This document shows positions 585-43,908 of a DNA stretch of 43,908 bases, piece by piece. Positions within the stretch are counted from its first letter, which is position 1; each line of letters starts with the position of its first letter. Source of the stretch: Patescibacteria group bacterium (lineage in GTDB: Bacteria; Patescibacteriota; Minisyncoccia; Phycocordibacterales; Phycocordibacteraceae); NCBI GenBank assembly GCA_029260935.1, contig JAJDCJ010000017.1, positions 1 to 43,908 on the forward strand. Reading direction: 5' to 3'. Position numbers and translations under genes: made by a program. The notes below the pieces were generated by a model that was given only the letters and a program-made list of their open reading frames with translations, was not told the origin of the DNA and ran no database searches.

Positions 585-666
585 GCCGAAGTGGCGGAAT
601 TGGTAGACGCGCACGACTCAAAATCGTGTCCTTTCGGGGGTGTGGGTTCGATTCCCACCTTCGGCA
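585..666 (+). tRNA. tRNA-Leu(CAA)
   Basis: Acceptor GCCGAAG/CTTCGGC, anticodon loop CTCAAAA, long variable arm, T-arm GTGGGTTCGATTCCCAC. Confidence 0.95.
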
Positions 667-950
667 CAAAATAAACGAGCATAATGCGAAGCATTGTGTG
701 ACTATTATTTTGATGCAGGAGGTGGGAGTTGAAGAGAGGCTACTGCGAAGCCCGCGAGTATACGCGGTAGGAGCCGACGGGGTCGCGAACGCTTAGTATC
801 TTTGCGAGTCATACGATGCAAAGTACTTAGCAATGGCGACCGATGCGTGCCGAGCAGAGCGAGGACACTTCCCACCTTCGGCACAAAATAAACGAGCGCA
901 ATGCGAAGCATTGTGTGACTATTATTTTGATGCAGGAGGTGGGATGAGAA
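667..950 (+). repeat. tRNA-linked modular element downstream of tRNA-Leu(CAA)
   Basis: Inverted T-arm-like copy (GGAGGTGGGAGTTGAAG), AGTATA-loop hairpin, T-T mismatch hairpin 781-841, direct copy of tRNA 3' end (CCCACCTTCGGCACAAAATAAACGAGCG) near 870-900, then the post-tRNA spacer repeated. Confidence 0.85.
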
Positions 951-5249: not shown

Positions 5250-5568
5250 GTCTTTTATGTGGTCACAGATAATTTCCTCGTCGTCACTCGGAAATTTCCG
5301 CGACCCTGTCTCACTTGTTTTTTCTGCTGAAAAAACATAGCTCCGACTCGCACAAGTGCATCACAAAGCAAAGCAGTTTGCTTTGCTTGCCTTGTGCGCC
5401 GGGCAGGATTTTTCCCTTACAGGGACTGTATGGGTTTCGTATTCACTTCGCTATCGCTTGTTCATATACTCAACCGCTTTCAAATCCTGCCCGAAAGGTA
5501 TGCAGATACCTTTCTCCGGTGATGCACTGAACAAAAAAACCCGCCGGAAGGCGGGATTGTTTGTTCAG
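5250..5568 (-). repeat. tRNA-linked modular element downstream of tRNA-Tyr
   Basis: Inverted tRNA-3' copy interrupted by hairpin (5479-5526), direct copy cgccgggcaggattt near 5398, GGTC..GACC hairpin 5261-5305, CTGC-loop hairpins. Confidence 0.8.
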
Positions 5569-13166: not shown

Positions 13167-13620
13167 CAAAAAAATACGACAGTATTTTCTTTGGGCGCGG
13201 AGCACGTAAACTGCTTTACGTGCGGCGGGAATCGAAAGCCGCAGCCATATCGCTTTGCGATGGCGAGGCCGGGTAGGAGCCACTTAGGATGTTACGACTA
13301 GGGGGAGTAACATCCTTAGTGAGCTGACGCCGATTCCCGCCGTGGCCTCACGACAAAAAACGACACCTGCGTGTCGTTTTGCTGTACGTGAGGCAGCCGG
13401 AAGCATATTTCTTTTTCACTGTATTCATGGTGAAAAAGAAAAGCTGAGGCGGGGCCGAGCGCACTTAGTGTTTTAGAAGCGAAGCGAACTAAAACACTTA
13501 GTGACGAGTGGCCTCAAAATAAACGGTATCTGTGACCGATGCGTGCCGAGCAGAGCGAGGACACTTCCCGCTATATTAAATGGCCTCCAATTTAAACGGT
13601 ATCTGTGTTATTTTAGTAAC
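13167..13620 (+). repeat. tRNA-linked modular element downstream of tRNA-Cys (two units)
   Basis: Inverted copy GGCGGGAATCGAA at 13224-13236; direct copy GATTCCCGCCGTGGCCTCA near 13331-13350; two T-T mismatch hairpins (13278-13325, 13453-13513); tggcctc copies near 13510 and 13578. Confidence 0.87.
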
Positions 13621-13623
13621 GAT

Positions 13624-13705
13624 GCCGGGGTGATGGAATGGTAGACATAGGGGACTTAAAATCCCCGGGCCCTAGGCCGTGTGGGTTCGAGTCCCACTCC
13701 CGGCA
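13624..13705 (+). tRNA. tRNA-Leu(UAA)
   Basis: Acceptor GCCGGGG/CTCCCGGC region, anticodon stem-loop GGGGACTTAAAATCCCC, long variable arm. Confidence 0.95.
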
Positions 13706-14173
13706 CAAAATAAACGAGCGCGATGCGGAGCATTGCGTGACTATTATTTTTGGCCACGGCGGGAATCGAAGAGAGGCTACTGCGAAGCCCGCGAGCATAC
13801 GCGGTAGGAGCCGACGGGGTCGAGGGTACTTACTATTTTATGAGCAACGCGAAGTAAAATAGTTAGTACCGGTGACCGACCCCCACTCCCGGCACAAAAA
13901 ACTGGATGCGCATGCATCCAGTTTTTTATTTTGTGTGTAGGCCGGAGAACTCCCAACCACTCGCTTCGCTTATGTGCTGGGGAGAGGCTCGGTCACGAGT
14001 CACTAAATATTTTATTCCTCCGCGTCATAAAATACTAAGTGCTCGCGACCCCGACTCAGCGACAAGCACTCGTCGTACCTCCTCGTCTTGTATACCGCCT
14101 CCGTCTTTCGAGTCCTCTCCCAGCAGTAAAATAATAAAACTGAATGCATGCGCATCCAGTTTTTTATTTTATG
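13706..14173. repeat. Two converging tRNA-linked modular elements (tRNA-Leu(UAA) + strand; tRNA-Leu(UAG) - strand)
   Basis: T-T mismatch hairpins 13818-13877 and 13991-14050; direct copies CCCACTCCCGGCACAAAA and CCTCTCCCCAGCACATAA; inverted copies GGCCACGGCGGGAATCGAA and CTGCTGGGAGAGGACTCGAA. Confidence 0.85.
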
Positions 14174-14254
14174 TGCTGGGGAGAGGACTCGAACCTCCAC
14201 GCCCGAAGGCACCTGCTCCTAAGGCAGGCGTGTCTACCATTTCACCACCCCAGC
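14174..14254 (-). tRNA. tRNA-Leu(UAG)
   Basis: Anticodon stem-loop CTGCCTTAGGAGCAG, class II variable arm, acceptor GCTGGGG/CCCCAGC. Confidence 0.95.
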
Positions 14255-14409: not shown

Positions 14410-15064
14410 CATATGGGGGCAAACAAGTGGCTAAGCAAAGCATTTTGCTTGCATGTCGTCACGAATAATTATTCGTCAGCCGCTCGCAATTTCCACGCGA
14501 CCAATTTCTCTTATGAGTCAGACGAATTAGAGAAATGGAAGTACTCCTGTGGTGACCCCAGCTCGCCCGGCTCTGCCGGGCTGCGCCTCGGACATGTACA
14601 AAAAAACAGCACGCAGGTCGTCTTGTCGCCACCAGTCACTAAGTAGAATGTTTCGCTACGCTCACATTCTACTAAGTGCTGTCGGCCCCGCTTCGCCCGG
14701 CCCCGCCGGGCGCCTCGGACATGTACAAAAAAACAGCACGCAGGGCAGGTCTTTGTGTACTTGTCGTCACAAGTTGCTAAGTATTTTAGAGCGCTTCGCT
14801 TCTAAAATACTAAGCACTCGCGACCCCAGCTCGCCCGGCCCCGCCGGGCTGCGCCTCGGACATGTACGCGAAAACGCCAAGTGGTTTATGTTTCGGTCAC
14901 CACCGGTTTCTAAGTATTTTAGAGCATTTCATTTCTAAAATACTAAGAACCTTTGGTCTGGGCTCGGCTTTTCTTTTTCACCTTGAACTCAAGTGAAAAA
15001 GAAATAGAGCCTGCGCCTCGGACATGTACGCGAAAACGCCAAGCAGTTGGCGTTTTCTGTCATG
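14410..15064 (-). repeat. Array of four tRNA-linked modular units downstream of tRNA-Lys
   Basis: CGGACATGTAC at 14589, 14716, 14857 and 15019; T-T/A-A mismatch hairpins 14628-14687, 14766-14824, 14899-14957; repeated cgcccggc..gccgggc hairpins. Confidence 0.87.
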
Positions 15065-29985: not shown

Positions 29986-30018
29986 CAAAAAGGCCCCGCC
30001 TACGGCGGGGCCTTTGCT
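29986..30018 (+). terminator. Rho-independent terminator after ftsZ
   Basis: aaaaaggccccgcctacggcggggccttt. Confidence 0.8.
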
Positions 30019-30177
30019 ATAATAAACAGTATCTCACTTGATAAAACAACAGTGATACATTAATTAATGTGAGACTATATGTACCCCGTTAGAAGTCTTT
30101 GGTAGAAAAAATTTGATTCAAATTTTTTCTACCCTGGCGGTAGAAACGGATATTAAGTAAATTAACGTAACAATAGT

Positions 30178-31134
30178 ATGAATACAAACCAAGAGCAGAC
30201 TTCTAACGAGGTGTACGACGTCGCGATAATTGGAGGAGGTCCAGGAGGTGCAGCAGCTGCGGTATATGCCGCACGAAAATTACTCAAAACCGTTTTTATA
30301 ACTAAAGACTTTGGCGGACAAAGTGTTGTCTCAACCGATATCCAAAACTGGATAGGTACCCCAAATATATCAGGAGAAAAACTAGCAAAGAATCTTGAAG
30401 CGCATGTCAGGGCCTATGCAGGTGACGTCGTTGATATAAAAACCAATGACGTAGTGTCAAAAGTTGTCAAAGAAAACGACCATTTCACTATTACCACAGA
30501 GAGTGGTGCACCCTATACAGCAAAAGCAATTCTTGTAACCACCGGGGGTGACCGCAAACGACTTCCTGCAAAAGGAGCCGACACCTTTGAAAACAAGGGA
30601 GTAACCTATTGTGCTTCGTGCGATGGCCCACTCTTTGCAGGACTTGATGTTGCCGTCGTGGGCGGTGGTAATGCAGGGTTTGAAACAGCCGCACAACTTT
30701 TGGCCTACACTAAATCAGTCACTCTTTTGCAACGTACTAATGAATTCAAAGCAGATCCAAAAACCGTTGAAAAAGTACTCAGCCATCCTCATATGACCGG
30801 CATTCTGAACGCTGAAACAACGGAAGTGCTGGGTGACACGTTTGTCTCGGGGCTTACGTATACAGACATAAAAACTGACGAGGAAAAAGAGATCCCAGTC
30901 AGTGGTATTTTTGTTGAAATCGGTATAATACCTAACACCAACTTCCTAGGCGATATGGCTGAGCTTGATCAGATTAAACGAATTGTTGTTGATCCAAAAA
31001 ACCAACGGACGAGCGTTGATGGCATGTGGGCGGCAGGCGACTGCACCGATAGTCTCTACCACCAAAACAATATCGCAGCGGGGGACGCCGTAAAAGCACT
31101 TGAGGATATATACCTCTACCTGAGCACCCAATAA
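30178..31134 (+). CDS. trxB: Thioredoxin reductase-like FAD/NAD(P) oxidoreductase
   Basis: VAIIGGGPGGAAAAVYAAR, GVTYCASCDGPLFAGLDVAVVGGGNAGFETAAQL, GMWAAGDCTD. Confidence 0.94.
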   Translation: MNTNQEQTSNEVYDVAIIGGGPGGAAAAVYAARKLLKTVFITKDFGGQSVVSTDIQNWIGTPNISGEKLAKNLEAHVRAYAGDVVDIKTNDVVSKVVKENDHFTITTESGAPYTAKAILVTTGGDRKRLPAKGADTFENKGVTYCASCDGPLFAGLDVAVVGGGNAGFETAAQLLAYTKSVTLLQRTNEFKADPKTVEKVLSHPHMTGILNAETTEVLGDTFVSGLTYTDIKTDEEKEIPVSGIFVEIGIIPNTNFLGDMAELDQIKRIVVDPKNQRTSVDGMWAAGDCTDSLYHQNNIAAGDAVKALEDIYLYLSTQ

Positions 31135-31153
31135 ACTGGAACCTACACAAACA

Positions 31154-31203
31154 ACAAGAAAACACCCGAAAATGGCGTACGCCATTTTCGGGTGTTTTCT
31201 TGT
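31154..31203. terminator. Perfect 50-bp palindrome between convergent genes
   Basis: ACAAGAAAACACCCGAAAATGGCGT|ACGCCATTTTCGGGTGTTTTCTTGT, zero-nt centre. Confidence 0.85.
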
Positions 31204-31209
31204 CTTATA

Positions 31210-31455
31210 TCATTTTTCAGGAAAAAAAGTCTGATGCCCTCCATAGATGGCAAGTAATGTACCCGCAATAAAACCTCCTCCTTCAAAGGAAAACCACTCA
31301 CCCGCCTCTCCCGTTAGGTACGCAAACGCTCCCGCCACCAAAAGACCAGTTAAAAAATATCCCGCCCCCTCCTTACGAGAACCCAAAAGATTTTGAGAAG
31401 ACTTTGTTGTTTGTTCTGGTGCTCTATAATCTTCAATTTTTACAACATTGTTCAT
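31210..31455 (-). CDS. Small membrane hypothetical protein
   Basis: MNNVVKIEDYRAPE... with two hydrophobic helices. Confidence 0.55.
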   Translation of the reverse strand: MNNVVKIEDYRAPEQTTKSSQNLLGSRKEGAGYFLTGLLVAGAFAYLTGEAGEWFSFEGGGFIAGTLLAIYGGHQTFFPEK

Positions 31456-31722
31456 AAAAGTATGTTTATTTACTACGAATAATATTATACAACATATCTT
31501 AGATTAAAACAAGAAAGTCCATGTAGAAAAAACCCACTGATTGATCAACAATGATGGACGTCCGACGTCCATCATTGTCCTGGTCTGCTAGTGCTCCCTT
31601 CACCCGCACACTAACTTTGGCATTATAGATTTTGCGCGCTCTTGATGTGCATTTCAAATAACGGCGGTGCTCGCGCGTCTCAGACTTGGCGCGTACTCCA
31701 TACTGCTGGCGCGATGCCAAAG

Positions 31723-32349
31723 TTAGTGTGCGGGCTCATCCGCCAAACGCCACAGGTACCAGCTGGCAATGGTGCGGTAGGGCTTCCAGGGCTCTGCAAG
31801 TTTTTTCATTTTTTCAGGGTTCGGCAACGTGCGTAAATTAAAGAGTCTTTGAAAACCCTTCTGAATACCCAAGTCCCCCGTCGGTAAAATATCCGGTCGG
31901 TGCAATGTAAACATTAAAAACATATCAGCAGTCCATGGTCCCACCCCCTTCACGGCAATAATATGTGCACGGATATCCTCGTCTTCCATAGAGGAAAACT
32001 TACGAGGATTAACCGAACCATCTAAGAATTTTACTGAAAGGTCATGTAAATACCCTGCTTTCTGTCCTGAAAGACCCACTGAGCGTAGTTTCGCCTCAGA
32101 CGTTGTGCTGAGCGCTTCAGGCGTTGGGTAGTGCTCTTTTGGGTACAACGCTAAGAACCTGCCAAGAATAGTCCCTGCCGCCTTTCCTGAAAGTTGCTGA
32201 TAGACAATGGCACGAATAAGCGCCTCAAATGGCTTCTTCCCTTTTTGCCCACGGTCAAACTCCGGCTGTGGGTAGCGGGTAATGAGGCTCTTGAGGTGCA
32301 TGTCCTTTTTCAAAGCAAAAAGGGCGTCATTGATGAGCTGTTTTTGCAT
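31723..32349 (-). CDS. DNA-3-methyladenine glycosylase II-like (AlkA/HhH-GPD)
   Basis: FEALIRAIVYQQLSGKAAGTILGRF, IIAVKGVGPWTADMFLMFTLHRPDILPTGDLGIQKGF; start at internal Met. Confidence 0.92.
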   Translation of the reverse strand: MQKQLINDALFALKKDMHLKSLITRYPQPEFDRGQKGKKPFEALIRAIVYQQLSGKAAGTILGRFLALYPKEHYPTPEALSTTSEAKLRSVGLSGQKAGYLHDLSVKFLDGSVNPRKFSSMEDEDIRAHIIAVKGVGPWTADMFLMFTLHRPDILPTGDLGIQKGFQRLFNLRTLPNPEKMKKLAEPWKPYRTIASWYLWRLADEPAH

Positions 32350-32538
32350 CTCGCCACTATAACATTCTGCCCATCCACCGTTGGACGTCGGACGTCCAAC
32401 GGTGGGGCCGACCCGTGGCCAACGCAAAAGATATCCACACAAAAATGATGCACAAAGTGCTTGTGAAAGAAAAAATGATTCTATACTTCAATCGTTATTC
32501 GCTATTAACCAGCGCGTAACCTAAACACAGCAAAAGAA

Positions 32539-32601
32539 ATGAAAAAGAAAAAGGCGGCGGTAAAAAAGACCACTGCCAAAAAAATGACCAAAAAGAAATA
32601 G
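32539..32601 (+). CDS. Possible 20-aa Lys-rich micro-ORF
   Basis: MKKKKAAVKKTTAKKMTKKK followed by terminator aaaacccgcctctcggcgggttttt. Confidence 0.35.
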   Translation: MKKKKAAVKKTTAKKMTKKK

Positions 32602-32616
32602 CGTGCTCTTTCTTCC

Positions 32617-32646
32617 CAAAAACCCGCCTCTCGGCGGGTTTTTGGT
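32617..32646 (+). terminator. Rho-independent terminator
   Basis: aaaacccgcctctcggcgggtttttgg. Confidence 0.8.
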
Positions 32647-32885
32647 TTGCTTCTCTACCTCTACCCCACCCGAACTAACGACTGAATTAATTCGGTTGTA
32701 GTTCGGTTTCCATACTTGGTCAAAATCGGACATCGGATGTCCGATTTTGATAGTTTTAATTTGTGAAAATGTAGCTGTCGGACAGCTACATTTCAGCTAC
32801 ATTTTCAACAACATTCCTGTGGTCACTCGTCACCTGTGGCCCACATGGAAATGGGGTCAGACCCCATTTTCCATTTTCTGTTCTA

Positions 32886-33482
32886 TCATATGAGCCCATT
32901 GCTTTTTAACATCAATTCAGGTTTTCCCGCGTTCAACTCCTCCCCAACAGAAATACCCAGATGTGCTATAAGCGCTATCATTTCACCTTTAACCTCTATT
33001 GCTTCACTATGGCTAAGGTTAGATTTACCATCGTATTCAATCTCAATAAAACTCCCGAGTCCTTCAACTTGTTCTAAGACAATCTCATACAGGTCATTTT
33101 TAAGTATAGTTTTGACGTTATGAATCGTCACCAACGGTTTAAAATGCAGTTTTTCAAGAATTAATTTTAAAACACCATAATCACTAAAACTAGTTTCATG
33201 TTCATCGGAATATTGCCACACCCCATTACCATCAAAGTGATCATGTTTGTATGTGATGATATTTTTTCCGTCTTTTTCTCGCAGTCTAAATGAGGCAAGA
33301 AGGCGTCCGTTTTTATCCACATTTAAATCGTCAAATTTTTCTGAATAATAGTAATCATCTTTTACCGAGGCGGTTTTTACCTCTCTAAACACCTCACTAT
33401 CAAGTGGTTTTGAGTTAAGAATTTTAGTTTTTGCCTCAACCGCTGTTTCTTTTAAATTAAATAGAATTTCAATTTCCTTCAT
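32886..33482 (-). CDS. CYTH-domain protein (class IV adenylate cyclase/thiamine triphosphatase-like)
   Basis: MKEIEILFNLKE (ExExK-like), LLASFRLREKDGKNIITYKH, FIEIEYDGKS. Confidence 0.75.
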   Translation of the reverse strand: MKEIEILFNLKETAVEAKTKILNSKPLDSEVFREVKTASVKDDYYYSEKFDDLNVDKNGRLLASFRLREKDGKNIITYKHDHFDGNGVWQYSDEHETSFSDYGVLKLILEKLHFKPLVTIHNVKTILKNDLYEIVLEQVEGLGSFIEIEYDGKSNLSHSEAIEVKGEMIALIAHLGISVGEELNAGKPELMLKSNGLI

Positions 33483-33638
33483 ATGCTTTCAAAATTTTCC
33501 CTATTTTATCATAGTGACACCCTTTCTCTCTCCACTCGAGGGCTCGGGGAACGGCTCATATTACCCGGTATGTGAGCCGTTGGGGTCCTCGGGAGCTATT
33601 GGTGCGTCACGTGCATGTGGTAGAAATGAGGTCAGCTA

Positions 33639-34817
33639 CTATTCTTTTCTCCCAAATTCCTTTGCAAGAAGATAGCGTTGATATGTCTCTTCATATCGTG
33701 CATAAATAACCGCTTGTGCATATTTGTTGGTAGTTGAGAGTGACACTCCCTTCCCAAAAGTTCCATACCCGTCCGACAATTCTTCTGAGAAATTTTCTTT
33801 TATCGTAGCCATTGAGCTTCCTTTTTTCCTCTCGGTAATATAGACCAGCACACCTCCGGCAAAATCTGTCTCACGTGCTTCCTTGGCTATTTCAATGACT
33901 GTTTTTGCTGGGACATCACCAAATTTCGGTACCTTGAACTTGTCGCTTAATTTATCGTATGCTTTTTCTACATCTTTTTCTTTCTGACTCTTTGCATCTT
34001 TTAATACTTCTCTGGCTATTTCTCTTTGTAGTTCTTTGTCTTTGTCAGGTAGTTTCCCCTTGAATGAAAATATTCCCTTAAAATCGCTCCATGCGTCACC
34101 AACTGTATTGGAAATATTACTGAGTCCACTTCCCGAATGCGCCGCATCATACGCATTATTGTAAAAATGTTTTCCGTCTGACGTGAAGCGTTCCTTGCCG
34201 TACGGATCCACCATTTTGGCAATTTTTGTTCCGTTCTCGTCAGGCCAATTTTGTGTGTCAAATGTATTGAAACTAACACCAGTAAATGCATCGGTCTCAT
34301 CAAATGGATTCTCTTCGTTGGGGTCAAAGTCAGTTATGCCGTCGCCATCAATATCCGTACCCCACTTAGGTTCTTTGTCGCCACCAACAAACGGGATGCC
34401 ATCTTTAATATTCTCAAGTGTACCTATGACGTTCTCTTTCAAAACACCCTTAAGAATGGGAATAATCCTCCCCACTATATATTGTATTTCTTTTGCATCA
34501 ACGCCATCTTCTATGTTTATTTCATTTTCAATTCCTTCAAGTCTTTTCTGAACCTCGCGTACCACCCCTGGGTCAATCTTGTTTACATCAATCCCCGTTT
34601 GCTCCTTAATTTGCTGTATACCTTTTTGTACGTCCGGATTATTGGACAGTTGAGCTGCAGTACCCTTCATTACACATCTGGTACCATTCCATTCAAGATT
34701 CAAAGGACAATTACCAGGAGCTGCGTGTGCTATGGGAGGACCTCCAAGCAACACAGTAAGTGCTATGAATAAACTAACTGACATAAAATACGTTATGTTG
34801 TATGTATGTGCCTTCAT
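33639..34817 (-). CDS. Secreted hypothetical protein with Ca-binding-like DxDxDG motif
   Basis: Signal peptide; DIDGDGITDFDPNEENPFDETDAF. Confidence 0.6.
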   Translation of the reverse strand: MKAHTYNITYFMSVSLFIALTVLLGGPPIAHAAPGNCPLNLEWNGTRCVMKGTAAQLSNNPDVQKGIQQIKEQTGIDVNKIDPGVVREVQKRLEGIENEINIEDGVDAKEIQYIVGRIIPILKGVLKENVIGTLENIKDGIPFVGGDKEPKWGTDIDGDGITDFDPNEENPFDETDAFTGVSFNTFDTQNWPDENGTKIAKMVDPYGKERFTSDGKHFYNNAYDAAHSGSGLSNISNTVGDAWSDFKGIFSFKGKLPDKDKELQREIAREVLKDAKSQKEKDVEKAYDKLSDKFKVPKFGDVPAKTVIEIAKEARETDFAGGVLVYITERKKGSSMATIKENFSEELSDGYGTFGKGVSLSTTNKYAQAVIYARYEETYQRYLLAKEFGRKE

Positions 34818-34894
34818 TGCTATTTAGTATACTAGAAATATCTTCACTTGTAATAAAAAGTTTATTTAAAGACGTAAACGGGGATAAGTACCAT

Positions 34895-36931
34895 TTAATT
34901 TCGTACATAATCGTCTGGGTTGATCGCATCAATACCACCAAGTATCCTCACTACTCCTGTGTTTGCATCCACCTCCACTTCGTCGCCATTTTTTAAGATA
35001 TGTGTTGCTTTTTTTGTACCCACCACACACGGGATCTTTAATTCGCGCGAAACAATAGCAGCGTGAGAGAGCATTCCGCCGCCATCCGTTACAATCGCTG
35101 CAGCTTTCTTCATGAGTGGCACAAAATTCGGATCAGTCATTCCGGTAACGAGGATTTCTCCTTCATTAATTTCAGCTCTTTTAAAGTCTTTAATGATACG
35201 ACATTTCCCTTTCACTATCCCTTTATACGCAGACTGACCCTTAAGTTCCCCTTCTGTATCTAACGCGCTCCAAGCGGCTTGAATGAGTTCAACCTCTTTT
35301 CCTGTAAGTTCATCTAGTCCTCCACGCCTAACATATACTCCTGAACGTTGTGCTCGTTGCGTTAAATGCTTTGGTTCTGGTAACACCCCATTCGTCGTGT
35401 ATCCATGCAACTCGTCAAGCGAAAGCATCGATAACTGTTCAGGTGAGTGAGTGTTAGATTTGATATTACTCATTGCGCTTTTAATAAACGATTCCATTTC
35501 CTTGTAAAAGGTCTCGGAGTACTTTCTTGCTTCGCTCAACACTTCAAGAATTGATGGGTCAGCGTCGAGCGGGAGAAAGTTCACTACTGCTTTCGTTGCG
35601 ATTTGGTATGTGGTATATGTCTCATTGATACGTACTGCTTCGTCAAAACTTGCCCAGAACTCTTCTGGTGGTTTTTGGAAGAGTGCCACAGCGTCATCCG
35701 CAGCAGCTTTGAACTTTTGCGCGAGCTCCTGTGCACCTTCCGAACTGCCAAATCGTTTAGCCAGATATGAACCACACTCTTCGTATTCTGTTGTCGGCAA
35801 CCAAGCAGAGGCGATAGTATCTTTATAAAAAACTAGATATGAAAAGAGTGCTTTACCAAGAAGTTTTTCACTTAAGTCAATATAGGTTGGGCCATTAGCA
35901 ATTGAGACAACAAGAAGAGAGAAACGTCCTTCCCAATCTTTCTGCCAGTCCTTATTTTTCAACTCATTAACAAACGAGTTGGTTTGTGTATCGTTTGTTA
36001 AGGTCGTAATTGGCCTGCTCTGCACAACATACATATCACTTCCTTCCTTTGCCCACTCAATATCTTGCGGTGAACCATAATGGTTTTCAATCATTAGGAT
36101 TGTTTCAGAGAGTTTGAGTATTTCATCGTCAGTTAGTACTTGTTCGCTACCGTTTGTTGTTTCTTTCCATTCGTTTCCGCCACCTTGTTTTCTAAAGAGC
36201 CCTTTCTTTTGTTCAATGACATTTTTATCAAGTATTTTTCTAGGCTCCTTCGTAACAACGTAACTGTCTGGTGTGATTTGTCCTGAAACGACTGCCTCAC
36301 CGAGACCAAACCCAGCTTCAATGATCATTTGGTTTCTATCTTCGGTAACGGGGTGAACGGAAAAAGCAATCCCGGCAGAGTCGCTGTTCACCATCTTTTG
36401 CACCACAACAGCCACTGAAATATGCTCGTTGTTAAGTTCTTTTTCAAAACGATAGAAGATCGCACGAGGTGTAAAGAGTGATGCCCAACACTCACGCACA
36501 TTATGTAAAAGAGTTTTTTCTGTAGTATTTAAAAACGTGTCTAGCTGTCCAGCCCACGCTGCTTCAGCACTATCTTCTGCTGTTGCAGAAGAACGTACAG
36601 CTACAAATTCAGTATCAAGTTCTTTAAATGAATTTAGTATTTCCTGTTCTATTTCTTTTGGAATTTCTTTTTCTTCCAAAATGAGCCGTTGAATCTGCGC
36701 TGACGCTTGTTCTACAGTGTGCATTGCGTCAACATTAACCGTCTTTAAAATTGTATTTATTTCTATGTTAATGTCTGATGTTTCAAGGAATTTTTCAAAA
36801 GCTGACGAAAGAATAACGTACCCAGGAGGTACTCGAATACCAGCCTGAGTGAGCTCACCAAGCGACGCGCCCTTGCCGCCAGCAATGGCGGCATCATTTT
36901 TACCTATTTCAGAGAAGTCTTTTGTCCACAT
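34895..36931 (-). CDS. PEP synthase/rifampicin-phosphotransferase-like enzyme: PEP/pyruvate-binding domain plus phosphohistidine swivel domain
   Basis: GGKGASLGELTQAGIRVPPGYVI, VRSSATAEDSAEAAWAGQLDTFLN, TDGGGMLSHAAIVSRELKIPCVVGT; no TIM-barrel PEP-utiliser C domain. Confidence 0.82.
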   Translation of the reverse strand: MWTKDFSEIGKNDAAIAGGKGASLGELTQAGIRVPPGYVILSSAFEKFLETSDINIEINTILKTVNVDAMHTVEQASAQIQRLILEEKEIPKEIEQEILNSFKELDTEFVAVRSSATAEDSAEAAWAGQLDTFLNTTEKTLLHNVRECWASLFTPRAIFYRFEKELNNEHISVAVVVQKMVNSDSAGIAFSVHPVTEDRNQMIIEAGFGLGEAVVSGQITPDSYVVTKEPRKILDKNVIEQKKGLFRKQGGGNEWKETTNGSEQVLTDDEILKLSETILMIENHYGSPQDIEWAKEGSDMYVVQSRPITTLTNDTQTNSFVNELKNKDWQKDWEGRFSLLVVSIANGPTYIDLSEKLLGKALFSYLVFYKDTIASAWLPTTEYEECGSYLAKRFGSSEGAQELAQKFKAAADDAVALFQKPPEEFWASFDEAVRINETYTTYQIATKAVVNFLPLDADPSILEVLSEARKYSETFYKEMESFIKSAMSNIKSNTHSPEQLSMLSLDELHGYTTNGVLPEPKHLTQRAQRSGVYVRRGGLDELTGKEVELIQAAWSALDTEGELKGQSAYKGIVKGKCRIIKDFKRAEINEGEILVTGMTDPNFVPLMKKAAAIVTDGGGMLSHAAIVSRELKIPCVVGTKKATHILKNGDEVEVDANTGVVRILGGIDAINPDDYVRN

Positions 36932-37045
36932 TAAACCATTGTACCTCTTTATAAAAAACGGCTCAATCTTAGATTGAGCCGTTTTTGAACCGCCCGCCTC
37001 CCGTTTCCGTCCCATTCCGCTTTCAAAAAACACCTCCTACTCAAC

Positions 37046-37079
37046 AACATTCTCATATTCTTGAGAATATGAGAATGTT
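37046..37079. terminator. Hairpin with 15-bp perfect arms, TTGA loop
   Basis: AACATTCTCATATTC-TTGA-GAATATGAGAATGTT. Confidence 0.6.
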
Positions 37080-37127
37080 TAAAACCACCACTGAGAAGTG
37101 TCCGAGCCCCATACAGCATGGGGCCCG

Positions 37128-37312
37128 GCACGCATCGGTCACCTTTGCTAAATATTTTGTTTCGCATACTTACAAAATATCAAGCGACGCGACCCCGTCG
37201 GCTACTACTGTGTATACTCACAGGCTTCGCAGTATCCTTTCTTCGATTCCCCGTAGTGTCTACAAGAACGTAAAAACCCCAATACTTTCGTATTGAGGTT
37301 AACGTCTTGTGA
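37128..37312 (-). repeat. Left copy of about 185-bp direct repeat (tRNA-Glu-linked element without adjacent tRNA)
   Basis: Nearly identical to 40487-40674; ends at gtcttgtga before diverging. Confidence 0.88.
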
Positions 37313-37790
37313 TGAAATCATAACCTTTGCTCGAACTTACTTCCAATCGCGAAGCGATTGATCTGCAACGCGCCGAGCGCGTGGTGACTCTAAACTTAAT
37401 CTTACGCATTGGAGTTTGATGTGACGCGCCACACGCCTCGCTCCACTCGGCGTCCAAAAACCAAAACTATTTCCTTCCTTCTTCTTTTCCTGCGGTGGGT
37501 TTTTTGAAAAATGAAAAGCAAAAAGAATGGTGTTGCGAGGTTCCGCCGGAGCGAAGCGGAGGCGGTTAGGTGTCGTAAAAAGTTCGCGCAAAGGTTAGAA
37601 TATCCTCACAAAAAGAAACTTCGTCCAAAGAAAGGGCGGAACACGCGCTTGCCTGTGGCAAGCGCGTGTGCGTTTTGTCGCGCATCCGCGCGGCGTATTG
37701 GGACGGGACGGGGACGGAAAACTGCATGGATTTACACCTTGCTTCGTATCCACCACAGTCGCTTTTTTGTTAGAATAGAATGAAGCGACT

Positions 37791-39317
37791 ATGGCAAACC
37801 AAAAATGTTTTCTCTACGCACGCAAATCAACGGAACCTGACGACAAGCAGGTGATGTCCATTCCTGCGCAGTTGGTGGAATTGCGAGAATTTGCGCGTAA
37901 AGAAAATCTTGAAATCCTTTCGGAGTTTCAAGAGTCGAAAAGCGCAAAGACTCCAGGGCGTGAACAGTTTGCAGAAATGATAACGCGCATTGAAGCTGGA
38001 GAAGCAAGCGGGATTTTAGCATGGCACCCTGACCGCTTGGCGAGAAATAGTATCGATGGTGGGCGCGTCATTTATGCAGTTGATACACAAAAGGTTACGT
38101 CTTTACGCTTTCCGACATTTTGGTTTGAACCCACTCCGCAGGGACTCTTTATGTTACAAGTGGCGTTCGGACAATCTAAATATTATTCAGACAGCCTAAC
38201 GCAAAATGTGAAGCGAGGAATGCGAGCAAAATTACGCCGTGGCGAGTGGCTAACGCGCGCTCCTTTCGGGTATGTAAATAATCCTAAAACTCGTAACATT
38301 GAACCACATCCCGTGCATAGCAAAATTATCGTGCGCGCTTTTAAGGAGTATGCAAAAGGTACGCATGGACTCGTATCGCTTTCACATTTTTTGCATGAAC
38401 ATGGAGTTAGTACCAAGAAAGGTACGCCACTTGGCAAAGCTTCCATCAAACGACTTTTAACGAACCGTGCATACCTAGGATTTACAAAACATTATGACGA
38501 ATGGTTTGAAGGAAGCTTTGCGCCAATTATAACTCCCAAATTGTTTGAAGCCGTCCAAAAGGTTCTCGCAAGCAAAGCAAGACCTCGGAGAATGAAAGCA
38601 AAACATGACTTTCCATTTACCAATCTTTTTCGTTGCGGAGAGTGCGGGAGTATGTTCACCGCACAATGGGCTACAGGAAAGTGCGGAGGAAAGTATAGAT
38701 ACTATCGGTGTACGAAAAAGAAAGGAAAATGTGCTCAAGGATATTTGCGCGAGGAAGCTCTTGTCGCAGAAATAAAGGAACGGTTCCAAACAATTTCACT
38801 TTGCGATGAGGATACAGATTATATGCTCAAACGTGTTGAGGAGTTTGAGCAAGGGGAAAATCACTCATCGCAAAGTCGTGTTCAAAATCTTTCTTCCAAA
38901 CTCAAAGCAAGCGAGGAGAAACTGGACAAGCTCGTCTCGGTTTATCTTGATGGTGATATTCCAAAGTCAGTGTACATCAAGAAAAAAGACGAGCTTATGA
39001 GAGAATCGCTTGCTTTGAAAGAAAAGCGGAAAGATTTTGAGCACTTGGGAAATAATTGGGTCGAACCCCTGCGGGAATGGATTTTAGATACGAAACAAGC
39101 CAATTTTTTGAGCTCATCCGCAGATTTCCACGAAATCAGCTCCTTCGTCAAAAAGGTTGGAACGAACCCTACGGTTCGTGACAAATCCGCGCGCTTCGGC
39201 GCGCCAGTTCCGTCTGAATTCGTCGCGGAGCGACGCGCATTGGGAAAAGTTCTAAATTGTGACCCTAACGATACGGAACTCAAAACCCATAGTCCAGCAT
39301 CTCCAGGAAGTGGCTAG
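37791..39317 (+). CDS. Large serine recombinase (resolvase N-domain, recombinase domain, zinc beta-ribbon, coiled coil)
   Basis: YARKSTEPDDKQVMSIPAQLVELREFARKENLEI, GILAWHPDRLARNSIDGGRVIYA, FRCGECGSMFTAQ...YYRCTKKKGKCAQGYLREEALV. Confidence 0.95.
   Translation: MANQKCFLYARKSTEPDDKQVMSIPAQLVELREFARKENLEILSEFQESKSAKTPGREQFAEMITRIEAGEASGILAWHPDRLARNSIDGGRVIYAVDTQKVTSLRFPTFWFEPTPQGLFMLQVAFGQSKYYSDSLTQNVKRGMRAKLRRGEWLTRAPFGYVNNPKTRNIEPHPVHSKIIVRAFKEYAKGTHGLVSLSHFLHEHGVSTKKGTPLGKASIKRLLTNRAYLGFTKHYDEWFEGSFAPIITPKLFEAVQKVLASKARPRRMKAKHDFPFTNLFRCGECGSMFTAQWATGKCGGKYRYYRCTKKKGKCAQGYLREEALVAEIKERFQTISLCDEDTDYMLKRVEEFEQGENHSSQSRVQNLSSKLKASEEKLDKLVSVYLDGDIPKSVYIKKKDELMRESLALKEKRKDFEHLGNNWVEPLREWILDTKQANFLSSSADFHEISSFVKKVGTNPTVRDKSARFGAPVPSEFVAERRALGKVLNCDPNDTELKTHSPASPGSG
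39259..39302 (+). repeat. Left copy of about 44-bp direct repeat bracketing the TauE/SafE gene
   Basis: gtgaccctaacgatacggaactcaaaacccatagtccagcatct. Confidence 0.88.
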
Positions 39318-39442
39318 GATAGCGGGCAAATTCAGGACACTGGAGAATAACGCTTATTTTACGGAAGTGGAGAGCAAGGAACTAATCCCCTAACGAAGTT
39401 AAAACCTGTCTCTACGCTATAATTATCTGATAACACACATTT

Positions 39443-40189
39443 ATGATTCTAACTGACCTGATTATTTTTGGCATTGGATTTTTTGCAGCTTTTGTAGGAA
39501 GTATTGCAGCTGGTTCAGGCTTGATACTCATCTCCGCGCTACTCTTCCTTGGAATTCCACTGCCGGTAGCATTAGGAAGTACTAAGGTTGGTGCTCTTGG
39601 TTCTAGAATTGGCAACATAATTCGATTTTTGAAACATCAGAATATGGGTGTGCCATGGAGAGATATTGTTGTACTCACACTAATCGGTATTCCAGGCGCA
39701 CTACTCGGCACTTTTGTAATTGTATCCATTGAGTCTCAGATTCTGGAGAAAATTATAGGTGTGATACTTGTTCTCCTTCTGCCATTTTTATTTCGTGAAA
39801 AAGTGTTGGGAATCGTTGCAAATAGAGCAAGTGGAATTAAAAGATTCTTTTCACATATCGGATTCTTTCTACTCTCAATCTGGGATGGATTTTTCTCTCC
39901 TGGTGCAAGTTTCTTCCAAACATATCTGCTTGCAAAAGGATATGGTTATACTCTTTTGCAAGGTAAGGCAGTGACACGAATTCCGTATTTCATTGCTGAT
40001 GCAGTCAGTATTTCTATTTTCGTTGTGTACGCTTTGATTGACTATCGTATTGCGATTGTGTTGTTTGTTGGAATGTTGCTAGGGGGCTATGTTGGCACTG
40101 CAGTTGCCATCAAAAAAGGTGATGCGTGGATCAAACCACTTCTTGGAATCGTAATAGTAGTAACCGCAATAAAGTTGATATTCTTTTAA
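39443..40189 (+). CDS. TauE/SafE (TSUP) family membrane permease
   Basis: Multi-TM; GIGFFAAFVGSIAAGSGLILISALLFLGIPLPVALGSTKVGALGSRIGN...IPGALLGTFVI. Confidence 0.88.
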   Translation: MILTDLIIFGIGFFAAFVGSIAAGSGLILISALLFLGIPLPVALGSTKVGALGSRIGNIIRFLKHQNMGVPWRDIVVLTLIGIPGALLGTFVIVSIESQILEKIIGVILVLLLPFLFREKVLGIVANRASGIKRFFSHIGFFLLSIWDGFFSPGASFFQTYLLAKGYGYTLLQGKAVTRIPYFIADAVSISIFVVYALIDYRIAIVLFVGMLLGGYVGTAVAIKKGDAWIKPLLGIVIVVTAIKLIFF

Positions 40190-40282
40190 TCTAAAGGCAA
40201 TTCTAAAAAAGAAGTTTAATAACTCGTTAGGGTTGGCACAAAAAACACTAAAATACGTTGAGAAATATGATCGTCACATTAG

Positions 40283-40326
40283 GTGACCCTAACGATACGG
40301 AACTCAAAACCCGTTATCCAGCATCT
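40283..40326 (+). repeat. Right copy of about 44-bp direct repeat bracketing the TauE/SafE gene
   Basis: gtgaccctaacgatacggaactcaaaacccgttatccagcatct. Confidence 0.88.
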
Positions 40327-40486
40327 TAGTGGAGATATGGGGATAAGGAGATATGGGGATAAGTACGATATTTTTTGCATATTTGTGTCATAATATTTTC
40401 CGTGGCCTCCCCGGTCCTCGCAGGGAGGAAATGGGGTCAAGACCCATTTATTGTGACCCTATGGGGAAGTGTCTTTGCTTACGCTC

Positions 40487-40674
40487 GCACGCATCGGTCA
40501 CCTTTGCTAAGTATTTTGTTCGTCCTATAGACTCAAAAATACTAAGCGACGCGACCCCGTCGGCTACTACTGTGTATACTCACATGCTTTGCAGTAGCCT
40601 CTTTTCGATTCCCCGTAGGGTCTACAAGAACGTAAAAACCCCAATACTTTCGTATTGAGGTTAACGTCTTGTGA
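40487..40674 (-). repeat. tRNA-linked modular element downstream of tRNA-Glu (right copy of direct repeat)
   Basis: T-T/A-A mismatch hairpin 40496-40556; AGTATA-loop hairpin; inverted tRNA-3' copy cgattccccgtagggtc; direct copy tgtgaccctatgggg near 40452. Confidence 0.87.
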
Positions 40675-40743
40675 CCCTACGGGGAATCGAACCCCGATTT
40701 CCAGGATGAAAACCTGACGTCCTAACCATTAGACGATAGGGCC
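40672..40743 (-). tRNA. tRNA-Glu(UUC)
   Basis: Anticodon stem-loop CAGGTTTTCATCCTG, T-arm CGGGGTTCGATTCCCCG, acceptor GGCCCTA/TAGGGTC. Confidence 0.95.
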
Positions 40744-41007
40744 GGAGAATTTCCGAATACTGCTCAGGAAACGCGTTTGGGACGATGGAAAAATTCGTGA
40801 GTCATAGCTGGGCTATGGCGATACGGATTTTTTCGAGTACCAGGCGTGTTTACAACGCAGATTTCGAAATTATACGGCACGATCGTCGTCTGCACGATAG
40901 GGCCATATACTAGGTTGTAGGTACTAGGTGTGAGAAAAAACACCTAAGGAAACCAGGAACAACTCTCAAAATATAGCATTTTTCGCCCAAAATGCTAGAG
41001 TTTTAGG

Positions 41008-41058
41008 GCTGGAGGTGTGGCTGAGTGGAGGAAATACAAACTGCTTTGTATTTCCTCC
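41008..41058 (+). repeat. 5'-end fragment duplication of tRNA-Ser followed by 14-bp hairpin
   Basis: ggaggtgtggctgagtgg identical to tRNA-Ser 5' end, then GGAGGAAATACAAA-CTGC-TTTGTATTTCCTCC. Confidence 0.85.
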
Positions 41059-41114
41059 GAAGGAGGGCAATCACGAAGCCACTCGTCTGGTAACCAAAAT
41101 TTGAAATATATTTT

Positions 41115-41201
41115 GGAGGTGTGGCTGAGTGGTTGAAGGCACTGCTTTCGAAAAGCAGCATACGGGCAACTGTATCAGGGGTTCGAATCCTCTCACCTCC
41201 G
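41115..41201 (+). tRNA. tRNA-Ser(CGA)
   Basis: Acceptor GGAGGTG/CACCTCC, anticodon stem-loop CTGCTTTCGAAAAGCAG, long variable arm. Confidence 0.95.
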
Positions 41202-41340
41202 CATATATGAACGCAGTGAATATACTGCGGAGGTGGAGTGAAGCGCCTGCGCGCTTCGCGTGAGGATTCGAAAGGCGGAATACCACACCTCGCGAGGTGT
41301 GGTATTCCGCATGTGTGCGAATCCCGGGATTCGCACAAAC
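41202..41340 (+). repeat. tRNA-linked element downstream of tRNA-Ser: interrupted inverted copy plus two perfect palindromes
   Basis: GCGGAGGTG-[hairpin]-GTGAGGATTCGAA (41227-41272); 36-bp palindrome 41275-41310; 24-bp palindrome 41314-41337. Confidence 0.85.
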
Positions 41341-41392
41341 GAGCTCTCCGACTTTATTTTTTCTTATGTCACTCAAAAGGTATACTGAGTGC

Positions 41393-42517
41393 ATGCAAAC
41401 GCCACGATACGAATATAGCCGGTCAAAAATACAAGAAAAGATAGATTCTCTCCTTGCTTTTAAAACACCTTACGGGCTTACGGTGCGCTATGCAATAAAA
41501 GCAAACCCACACTCGGAGATTATAGACATGATGCATAAGGCGAGTATACATTTTGACGCAAGTTCAAGTTATGAGGCAACTCAACTTTTAAAACAAGGAA
41601 TACCTGGAAGTCACATATCACTCTCATCCCAACAATCACCACATAATCTTGAAGAGCTCCTTGATGCGGGAGTTTTGTTTGTGGCAACATCACTCCATCA
41701 GATGGATGTGTTCCTTGCATGCAAAAATCATCCCGGCACTGTTGGGGTACGAGTAAACCCTGACATCGGGCGCGGACATAACAATAGAACAAGCACTGCG
41801 GGAGTAAGTGCGAGTTTTGGTGTATGGCATGAGTACATAGACAACGTAATTGAACGAGCACAATCACACAACATAAAGATAAACAGAGTGCATGTTCATG
41901 TTGGCTCCGGCGGTGACCCACATTTATGGAGCGGTATTATAGAAAAGTCGCTCACTATGACAGAGAAGTTTACCGATGCCACATCGCTGGATATAGGTGG
42001 TGGTTTTAAAGTGCAACGATTTTCAGATGAACAAGAAGCTGATATGGAAAAAATCATACATATTTTTAAAGACACACTTTCTTCTTTTTATACACGCACA
42101 GGAAGAAAGATTCATTTGGAAATTGAGCCAGGCAGTTACTTAGTGGCGCACGCCGGTGTCTTAGTTGCCGAAGTTGATGACATTGTAGACACTGGGAAAA
42201 ATGGTCACACATTCCTACGTCTCAACACTGGAATGAATGATTTTCTACGAAGCTCACTGTACGGTGCACAGCACCGCATTGAAGTACTAAACGAAAACAC
42301 TGAAACAAAAGAGTATGTCGTCGTAGGTCACAATTGCGAATCCGGGGACATTCTTACCCCTGCCCCTGGTGACCCGGAAAAAATTGAAACGCGAACACTC
42401 AAACAAGCATCTATAGGAGACGAGGTACGGATATACGACACAGGTGCCTATGGGGCAAGTATGCGTGCAAAAGGATACAACTCATTTCCCGATGCCGAAG
42501 AAGTACTAGTTGATTAG
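41393..42517 (+). CDS. PLP-dependent diaminopimelate/ornithine decarboxylase family protein (alanine-racemase fold)
   Basis: YAIKANPHSEIIDMM, HVGSGG, LDIGGGF, EIEPGSYLVAHAG, GHNCESGDIL; start at internal Met. Confidence 0.88.
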   Translation: MQTPRYEYSRSKIQEKIDSLLAFKTPYGLTVRYAIKANPHSEIIDMMHKASIHFDASSSYEATQLLKQGIPGSHISLSSQQSPHNLEELLDAGVLFVATSLHQMDVFLACKNHPGTVGVRVNPDIGRGHNNRTSTAGVSASFGVWHEYIDNVIERAQSHNIKINRVHVHVGSGGDPHLWSGIIEKSLTMTEKFTDATSLDIGGGFKVQRFSDEQEADMEKIIHIFKDTLSSFYTRTGRKIHLEIEPGSYLVAHAGVLVAEVDDIVDTGKNGHTFLRLNTGMNDFLRSSLYGAQHRIEVLNENTETKEYVVVGHNCESGDILTPAPGDPEKIETRTLKQASIGDEVRIYDTGAYGASMRAKGYNSFPDAEEVLVD

Positions 42518-42525
42518 TGTTCTCT

Positions 42526-43554
42526 TTAAAAACTATTTATAAAAAACCCAATGGTGTCTGCGTTTTGAATGGCGAGCGCAATGAGAATTGAAACTGCTAA
42601 GCCGAACATGAGGCGTAACACATCTTTCCCCACAATCGGGAACACATGTTTGAATTTATAGTCTGCAATTCTGGCATACATAGCCAACTCTCTACCACTT
42701 AACAGGCCGATAAACACCCACGTGGTGGACATAGGAATGTTGTTAATTTCTTTGAAGAAAAGCAAAATTAAAGCAAAACAAAAATCAATGATCGTAGCGC
42801 TTCGGATGTAGTTTGTGTGTGATTTTTCAAGTACTATATTCTGAATCTTCCCTCCTCGTTTCCAAAAAATATACGCAAGCCCCAACACAAACACACTCAG
42901 CACCATAATAAATTGTGTGATGTTCAGATCCCGTGGTAAAAAGACGGCAACGTTTGCAATGTCGTGCGAAAGCCACGTGTACCATAAAAAACCAGTGGCG
43001 CTCCACTGAAGTATGCGCCATATAAGTTCTCTTTCTTTTGGAACTGGGTTGTTTTTATTGTCCCACTTGAAAATAACAAACCATAACACGTACGCCACTA
43101 CTGCCGCGATAGCGTAGCCCATTGCTGATTTTAAAAGAATACTACTAAAGAGCACTGACGAAGCAAAAGCACTCAACACTAACAGCGACGTTGAGACAGG
43201 AATACCAAAACGCGTAAGGATAACCAATGCCAATGGCGCAAGTGCGTGGTACCACTGAATTTCTACAAACGGAATTCTCTCAAGTCTCCCTGAGGCAATG
43301 TCGCCACCGTTTCCAAAATAACTCACACTCAACGTGACCACTAAAATAAGGGCTGCGAAGCCCCAGAGGTAGTACCATTTTGTTTTTTCATTTGAGGCAA
43401 TGAAGGTGCCCAGCGTTTGAATACTGTCGTTGCCAATGACCGAGTACGCAGCAAATAAAAAGCCTAGAATCATCCATACAAATGTCATTTCTAGGCCAAA
43501 CATCGCCCTTAGTGTATCAGCCCCTCTTTTTTTAAGAAGTTTTGTTATCCCCAT
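42526..43554 (-). CDS. Polytopic membrane protein, PiT-like phosphate permease family (tentative)
   Basis: GNDSIQTLGTFIA, GIPVSTSLLVLSAF, NIPMSTTWVFIGLLSGRE resemble paired PiT signatures. Confidence 0.5.
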   Translation of the reverse strand: MGITKLLKKRGADTLRAMFGLEMTFVWMILGFLFAAYSVIGNDSIQTLGTFIASNEKTKWYYLWGFAALILVVTLSVSYFGNGGDIASGRLERIPFVEIQWYHALAPLALVILTRFGIPVSTSLLVLSAFASSVLFSSILLKSAMGYAIAAVVAYVLWFVIFKWDNKNNPVPKERELIWRILQWSATGFLWYTWLSHDIANVAVFLPRDLNITQFIMVLSVFVLGLAYIFWKRGGKIQNIVLEKSHTNYIRSATIIDFCFALILLFFKEINNIPMSTTWVFIGLLSGRELAMYARIADYKFKHVFPIVGKDVLRLMFGLAVSILIALAIQNADTIGFFINSF

Positions 43555-43581
43555 TATTACCCATCTGTTACACTGTGTTAA

Positions 43582-43908
43582 ATGACACTTCCTAAAATCA
43601 CTCTTGCCGATATATCCGCTTCGCTGAGTGTGAGTTTTCTCAGCATCGCAGCAGGCGCTGCTTTGGGTGAATGGGTAGGTATTGGTGCCTTTGTAGGCAT
43701 TATCAGCATCGGTGGAGCGGCACTCGTCAGTAGTGTCTTCGGCGGTATTCCTTTTAAAGTAAGTGGTCTTTCGGCAACAACAGGAGCGCTCTACATAGGT
43801 ATAGTAGAAACCACATCACTCAGCCCCGATGCACTCATCTGGTCAATGTTGATAGCCAGTGTTTTATTGTTCTGGTCGGGACAGTACAAAACCGAACGGA
43901 TTATGAAA
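43582..43908 (+). CDS. SulP/xanthine-permease-like transporter (partial, C-terminus outside window)
   Basis: Translation MTLPKITLADISASLSVSFLSIAAGAALGEWVGIGAFVGIISIGGAALVSSVFGGIPFKVSGLSATTGALYIG. Confidence 0.55.
   Translation, partial: MTLPKITLADISASLSVSFLSIAAGAALGEWVGIGAFVGIISIGGAALVSSVFGGIPFKVSGLSATTGALYIGIVETTSLSPDALIWSMLIASVLLFWSGQYKTERIMK

Follow-up and report, generated by a model that had tools for sequence, protein, structure and literature searches.

The 3.4-kb segment next to the tRNA-Glu(TTC) gene raises the question of how a large serine recombinase gene and a TauE/SafE permease gene came to lie between this tRNA and a far-side repeat, and of whether the recombinase mobilizes the repeats themselves. 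The window (the whole stretch of 43,908 nt analysed here) makes up contig C9 of a 695-kb genome with Ca. Kaiserbacteria and their neighbours among its close kin. Two repeat copies, E0 (37128-37312) and E1 (40487-40674), showed 91% identity across 188 bp (E 1e-69), with exactly 6 mismatches in the 120 bp nearest the junction, and both are terminated by GTCTTGTGA. This sequence continues into tRNA-Glu(TTC) on the right side (ARAGORN) and into island DNA (TGAAATCATAACC) on the left side. The initial annotation had described these points in the same manner (approximately six differences per 120 bp, a common end, and the tRNA 3' end and island sequence as the respective continuations), and domains of the recombinase and permease were detected where it had placed them. 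Across positions 30000-43908, in the right part of the window, Rfam reported nothing besides tRNAs at family thresholds. Beyond E0, no clear direct copy of the tRNA was found.

The initial annotation had proposed a single insertion of recombinase, TauE/SafE, and one element copy between E0 and the tRNA-Glu 3' end. A serine-recombinase island at a GTGA/TCAC core was retained from this proposal, and one event was not. The segment is better regarded, with a probability of approximately 0.8, as a stack of independent insertions at the tRNA-Glu 3' end, in which the recombinase unit is an arm-decayed member of a family of islands at tRNA/tmRNA ends and the elements are separate. Comparisons between genomes show the boundaries, architecture, targets, and core identity of these islands and their independence from the element family. 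The features are collected in the table.

Table. Features of the tRNA-Glu locus and tRNA-linked elements in the window (positions of the window; arms, att sites, and island remnants are putative)
Feature	Position	Strand	Remarks
Element E0 with tRNA-Glu terminator	37128-37312	-	Far side of the stack
Distal P arm	37309-37339	+	Core GTGA 37309-37312; inverted relative to the internal P arm
Recombinase unit proper	37313-39258	+	Between GTGA 37309-37312 and GTGA 39259-39262
Internal uncut attP-like site, P.P'	37582-37630	+	AAAGGTTAGAATATCC-TCAC-AAAAAGAAACTTCGTC
Large serine recombinase, 508 aa	37791-39317	+	Intact ORF; PF00239, PF07508, PF13408
tRNA-side P' arm, degenerate	39120-39262	-	Resembles P' arms of the G011 and G000:C16 islands
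D2, distal end of B-type tRNA-Glu island remnant	39259-39302	-	
TauE/SafE permease gene	39443-40189	+	Between two D2 copies; PF01925, E 3e-30
D2', shortened distal end of second (B-type) tRNA-Glu island	40283-40326	-	
Element E1: terminator hairpin, inverted T-arm, structured core	40453-40686	-	R1 hit 40494-40615
Direct tRNA-Glu 3'-end copies flanking E1	40453-40468 and 40671-40686		
Degenerate tRNA-Glu 3'-end copy	40453-40468		GTGACCCTATGGGGAA; the left one of the two copies above, left of E1
tRNA-Glu(TTC), integration target	40671-40743	-	ARAGORN, Rfam
Shared core GTGA (+ strand), last 4 nt of tRNA-Glu	40671-40674		Compared with 46 islands
Other tRNA-linked elements in the window	660-950, 2707-2849, 5390-5568, 13167-13570, 13700-14175, 14700-15064		

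The window protein possesses the three domains of a large serine recombinase: the catalytic Resolvase domain (E 3e-21), the Recombinase domain (E 1e-11), and the zinc ribbon (Zn_ribbon_recom; E 1e-11). The boundaries of its unit were set by comparison with junctions in three genomes (G002, G005, and G019). In G002, a recombinase with 85% identity adjoins tRNA-Glu directly (GGGGTCAC|AATTTAAAACTTTTCCC); the same gene end is found in the window (AAATTGTGA, containing the core at 39259-39262), followed by D2 (GTGACCCTAACGATACGG) instead of the tRNA. The gene is directed toward a tRNA 3' end or a copy of one, as seen from the tRNA-Glu-like end at 39259, tRNA-Glu itself at 40671, and the G002 orthologue. 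The tRNA-side junction is crossed by the C-terminal codons of the recombinase, similar to rumA-targeting streptococcal ICEs, in which such codons are exchanged at the junction (PMC4701971). The enzyme may recombine attP with attB at a short core, for which the junction comparison suggests 4 nt.

TauE/SafE lies between the recombinase and the tRNA, bracketed by the 44-bp repeat D2 (93% identity between copies); recombinase-unit cargo of relatives is not located on this side. D2 resembles the tRNA-Glu 3' end (TTAGGGTCAC), and where the recombinase unit meets it on the tRNA side, positions 39259-39262 form the core. Homologues of D2 form the distal ends of tRNA-Glu islands in G005 and G016, which are of a different type with their own recombinase beside tRNA-Glu. 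Since D2 is the far end of a different island in these genomes, 39259-40330 is best read as remnants of this second type, with TauE/SafE between the D2 copies. D2 was also considered as a tRNA pseudogene or cargo; this was rejected because D2-like DNA was confined to 3 of 61 genomes and, in the other two, lies at the distal ends of tRNA-Glu islands. The second serine-recombinase island type at tRNA-Glu (L138 in G005:C30 and L139 in G016:C2) has half-sites that are nearly palindromic (ATCGTT/AACGAT) and ends distally with a small ORF.

The D2 pair, the degenerate tRNA copy left of E1, and the attP-like site within the recombinase unit indicate that the region is not one simple insertion. A single island carrying recombinase, TauE/SafE, and E1 between E0 and tRNA-Glu, with the recombinase mobilizing the elements, would account for the physical linkage between recombinase and element and for the terminator and junction that E0 and E1 have in common; however, the recombinase unit ends at 39258, TauE/SafE and D2 appear to belong to another island type within the segment, and the elements duplicate approximately 16 bp of the tRNA 3' end as opposed to the 4-nt core of recombinase units. 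The two related islands examined likewise lack an element copy. At the genome's own tRNA-Gly(TCC), an island is wedged between the tRNA and its element, with a far-side direct copy matching at 19/20 positions (the best of 500 random stretches matched at 15/20). The tRNA-Glu of G019 shows the same order, with the element on the far side of the island. In neither of these islands was an element copy found inside the island or next to the tRNA, contrary to the earlier claim that the island carries one.

The distribution of the two families points in the same direction. A covariance model detected the element in 103 of 148 genomes of the order; a blastn-level search of relatives had returned almost nothing, and the notion that the element is private to this genome was abandoned. 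Genomes with both, recombinase only, element only, and neither numbered 76/29/27/16 (Fisher p=0.33) among the 148, and 16/6/9/10 (p=0.12) among 41 relatives; the claim that the recombinase mobilizes the element family thus found no significant association. An excess of elements with the closest recombinases was weak and non-significant (19/3 vs 84/42, p=0.08), and would favour the single island if anything. A mobilizing enzyme should be present wherever the elements are abundant and have the element inside its boundaries, and the window recombinase showed neither property. The initial annotation had named abundant elements without a related recombinase as evidence against itself, and these exist: 27 of the 43 genomes lacking a related recombinase carry elements, and genomes with 11-18 copies and no recombinase match occur in the 41- and 148-genome sets alike (G004, 16; G009, 11; G171, 18; G094, 13; G178, 11). 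A close relative of the recombinase is unlikely to have been missed because the search reached homologues down to approximately 24% identity. In G029, several recombinases are present and elements are absent. The single island is, therefore, very unlikely indeed. E1 is separate from the recombinase unit, and the tRNA-linked elements, judged from these comparisons, are a separate family whose spread this recombinase fails to explain.

The element consists of a terminator hairpin, an inverted T-arm, and a structured core, followed by the tRNA 3' end repeated in direct orientation. A structured element was observed downstream of nearly every tRNA of the window, often in tandem and usually with the 3'-end copy of that tRNA. 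Two elements bear a foreign inverted T-arm, as if moved between tRNAs: that of Glu-TTC at Glu-CTC, and that of Cys at Leu-TAA (L003 1501-1629 and window 13752-13879). A second core class, with the motif GTACTG-hairpin-TGTAA at the same site between the inverted and direct T-arm copies, was noted at window 5393-5520 (Tyr), L006 (Ala), L104, L105, and L123, and a third (GGTGCCCAGAC...GTCGCGGGC) near L106-L108.

Scanning of genome contigs for the recombinase family gave 80 named loci. The recombinase converges on a tRNA 3' end 29-136 bp away in 61 of them (348 bp in one), and the contig ends before any tRNA in 7. Eleven tRNA isotypes are targeted in the arm-bearing set, and ARAGORN placed tmRNA beside the recombinase in three further loci (L226, L241, and L246); L211 and L243 resemble tmRNA ends by eye. 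Self-comparison of relatives' islands revealed two long inverted-repeat pairs meeting at one site: P' arms (100-145 bp) around the recombinase and P arms (178-295 bp) around the cargo. Inverted P' arms were found in 52 of the 54 testable loci, namely those with enough upstream DNA, and the second pair in several islands with enough flank. The arms are mostly 98-100% identical inside one island and divergent between islands. When the tRNA-side and internal sites of 46 islands were compared, identity was 93-100% from -4 onward, 35% at -5, and mostly <30% farther out; therefore, the internal attP carries the last 4 nt of the host tRNA. Among the cargo genes of relatives are those for EcoRI-type restriction-modification, an aromatic amino acid lyase, a D-Ala-D-Ala ligase, and an ABC transporter, together with AbiL-like genes. 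In L199 (3087-7381) and L251 (4061-7279), EcoRI-type restriction-modification is accompanied by AbiL-like or PDC-S19 candidate defence genes. In L082-L086, L093, and L094, the recombinase frame often crosses the junction into antisense tRNA, such that the target gene encodes the C-terminus.

Most relatives are metagenome assemblies, in which inverted repeats can mislead assembly, as at L204, where a scaffold gap lies in an arm. The inverted-repeat architecture might accordingly be an assembly artefact or a functionless by-product of gene conversion, and many contigs do end 50-450 bp from the recombinase start, with L204 mis-scaffolded. This explanation is nevertheless very unlikely: the arms recur in dozens of assemblies made independently, with contigs of 638-831 kb among them, they differ between islands in spite of 98-100% identity within many, and the cores follow the host tRNA. 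In L206, L212, and L204, the 3' side of the recombinase is joined to a P arm or cargo with no tRNA, which may represent a circle, an inverted form, or mis-assembly; given the gap in L204, these loci were set aside as proof of inversion of the recombinase module.

In the window, the internal attP-like site has the core TCAC (37606-37609), which equals the last 4 nt of the target tRNA-Glu and fits the P-arm consensus and core rule from the 46 islands. The distal P arm matches the internal one in inverted orientation at 26 of 31 bases (score 42; best of 200 shuffles, 34), and all three sites (internal attP, distal P arm, and tRNA-side core) bear the Glu core. The P' arms have diverged, their mutual score (36) being barely above the best shuffle (32); taken separately, that on the P' side of the internal site resembles the G019 arm, and the other resembles those of G011 and of the genome's own tRNA-Gly island. 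The closest relatives of the window copy, L178 (5' truncated) and L179, are also without a P' arm, and the ORF list contains no cargo gene between the window's P arms. Because clear P' arms and a cargo gene are lacking, the window copy is assigned to the family on the strength of its protein, P arms, cores, and junctions. The unit reads as a minimal or decayed member, cargo-free and arm-decayed, with an intact recombinase gene.

Read in tRNA orientation, the family design is tRNA / P' arm - recombinase (towards tRNA) - inverted P' arm. inverted P arm - cargo - P arm / original flank, with one core at three places: the tRNA junction, the internal uncut attP, and the distal junction. From these junctions, we infer the following scheme for catalysis, excision, the circular form, and the order of insertions. 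Most likely, the recombinase would join attP to the last bases of the tRNA gene, displacing the terminator and element outward; the tRNA would be undamaged because the crossover falls in its last 4 nt. Specificity for a single tRNA would be carried by the 4-nt core of attP. The excised circle would consist of two unique regions parted by long inverted repeats, with an att core central in each. The yeast 2-micron plasmid of the FLP system likewise has two unique regions with inverted repeats between them and a recombination site in each. The resemblance is confined to geometry: FLP is a tyrosine recombinase acting on an autonomous circular replicon, whereas the present islands encode a serine recombinase, integrate, and have no identified replication function. 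The uncut attP that is kept may permit inversion or repeated use. A circle of the window's recombinase unit alone would join GATTTCATCAC to AATTTAGAAC, the other predicted joint being CGTTAGGGTCAC-AAGACGTTAACC. A search for the empty site through flanking genes in close relatives found no tRNA-Glu beside the decarboxylase homologues; no empty allele of this locus, circle, or activity was seen, and neither integration nor excision was directly observed.

Later insertions at the same tRNA end, or at a copy of this end carried by an element, would build the stack; in the window, the second tRNA-Glu island type (D2 ends and TauE/SafE) and E1 lie between the tRNA and recombinase unit. We prefer an order in which the stack entered at a tRNA 3'-end copy between pre-existing tandem E1 and E0 (tRNA-E1-copy / stack / E0), and give it about even odds. 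Tandem elements occur in the window at Leu(CAA) and Lys, and taking the stack out gives CCCATAGGGTCAC|AAGACG, which is a normal joint between tandem units; however, all integrated relatives examined are inserted at the tRNA itself and never at an element-borne copy. A possible order, to which we assign somewhat less than an even chance, has the islands inserted first between the tRNA and E0, after which E1 was added as a fresh insertion of an element at the 3' end of the tRNA. Elements do appear to move between tRNAs, as judged from the Glu(CTC) element with the Glu(TTC) T-arm and the Leu(TAA) element with the Cys T-arm, while E0 is the sequence closest to E1, with a nearly identical terminator, which is more difficult to reconcile with a late arrival.

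Similar to Ccr/SCCmec, XisF, and phiC31/Bxb1-type elements, the islands combine Resolvase, Recombinase, and Zn-ribbon domains with a short shared core and attP/attB halves. They differ from large serine recombinase elements in targeting the 3' ends of tRNA/tmRNA of many isotypes, and in keeping a second, inverted uncut attP with long inverted repeats around the recombinase and cargo. Insertion at the tDNA 3' end, cargo genes, and stacking are shared with the tRNA-gene islands of Islander/TIGER, which use a tyrosine integrase and a long repeat restoring the tDNA; here, the recombinase is of the serine type and a 4-nt core keeps the tRNA, with no long restoring repeat. In the Islander study, only tyrosine integrases, and not serine integrases, were known to target tDNAs (PMC4383910). 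A serine recombinase integrates phiRSM filamentous phages of Ralstonia at the 3' 13 bp of tRNA-Ser (PMC4471427) and Paracoccus phage Pami6 at tRNA-Met (PMC6536676); these are single cases, and a double inverted attP is not described in the passages concerned. The multi-targeting LSRs of Durrant et al. are related recombinases with many targets, in which tRNA targets and inverted repeats are unmentioned (PMC10083194), whereas the targets here are tRNA/tmRNA ends. No description of this island family was found in the open-access literature, where no paper combined Parcubacteria and serine recombinase; one may exist elsewhere.

On balance, we lean toward the view that Patescibacteria carry previously undescribed integrative islands, in which one serine-recombinase lineage is aimed at many tRNA/tmRNA ends by a 4-nt core, two inverted attP sites lie within long inverted repeats, the circle would be invertible in a 2-micron-like manner, and the integrated copy keeps a ready attP. 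Apart from isolated exceptions, tRNA genes had been described as outside the targets of serine integrases (PMC4383910); here, a whole lineage appears to do so, spanning many patescibacterial groups, at least 11 tRNA isotypes, and tmRNA, under a simple core rule that is directly testable. In these genome-reduced and mostly uncultured bacteria, the family appears to be a vehicle for metabolic genes as well as for restriction-modification and Abi-like ones, and its compact integrases would have universal genes as natural targets. For models of directional serine integration, the internal inverted attP is structurally puzzling. Separately, a tRNA-Glu gene in G012 (C4:46989-47379) appears to be split, perhaps by an insertion or an intron, with approximately 310 bp between the matches to query positions 1-36 and 28-73.
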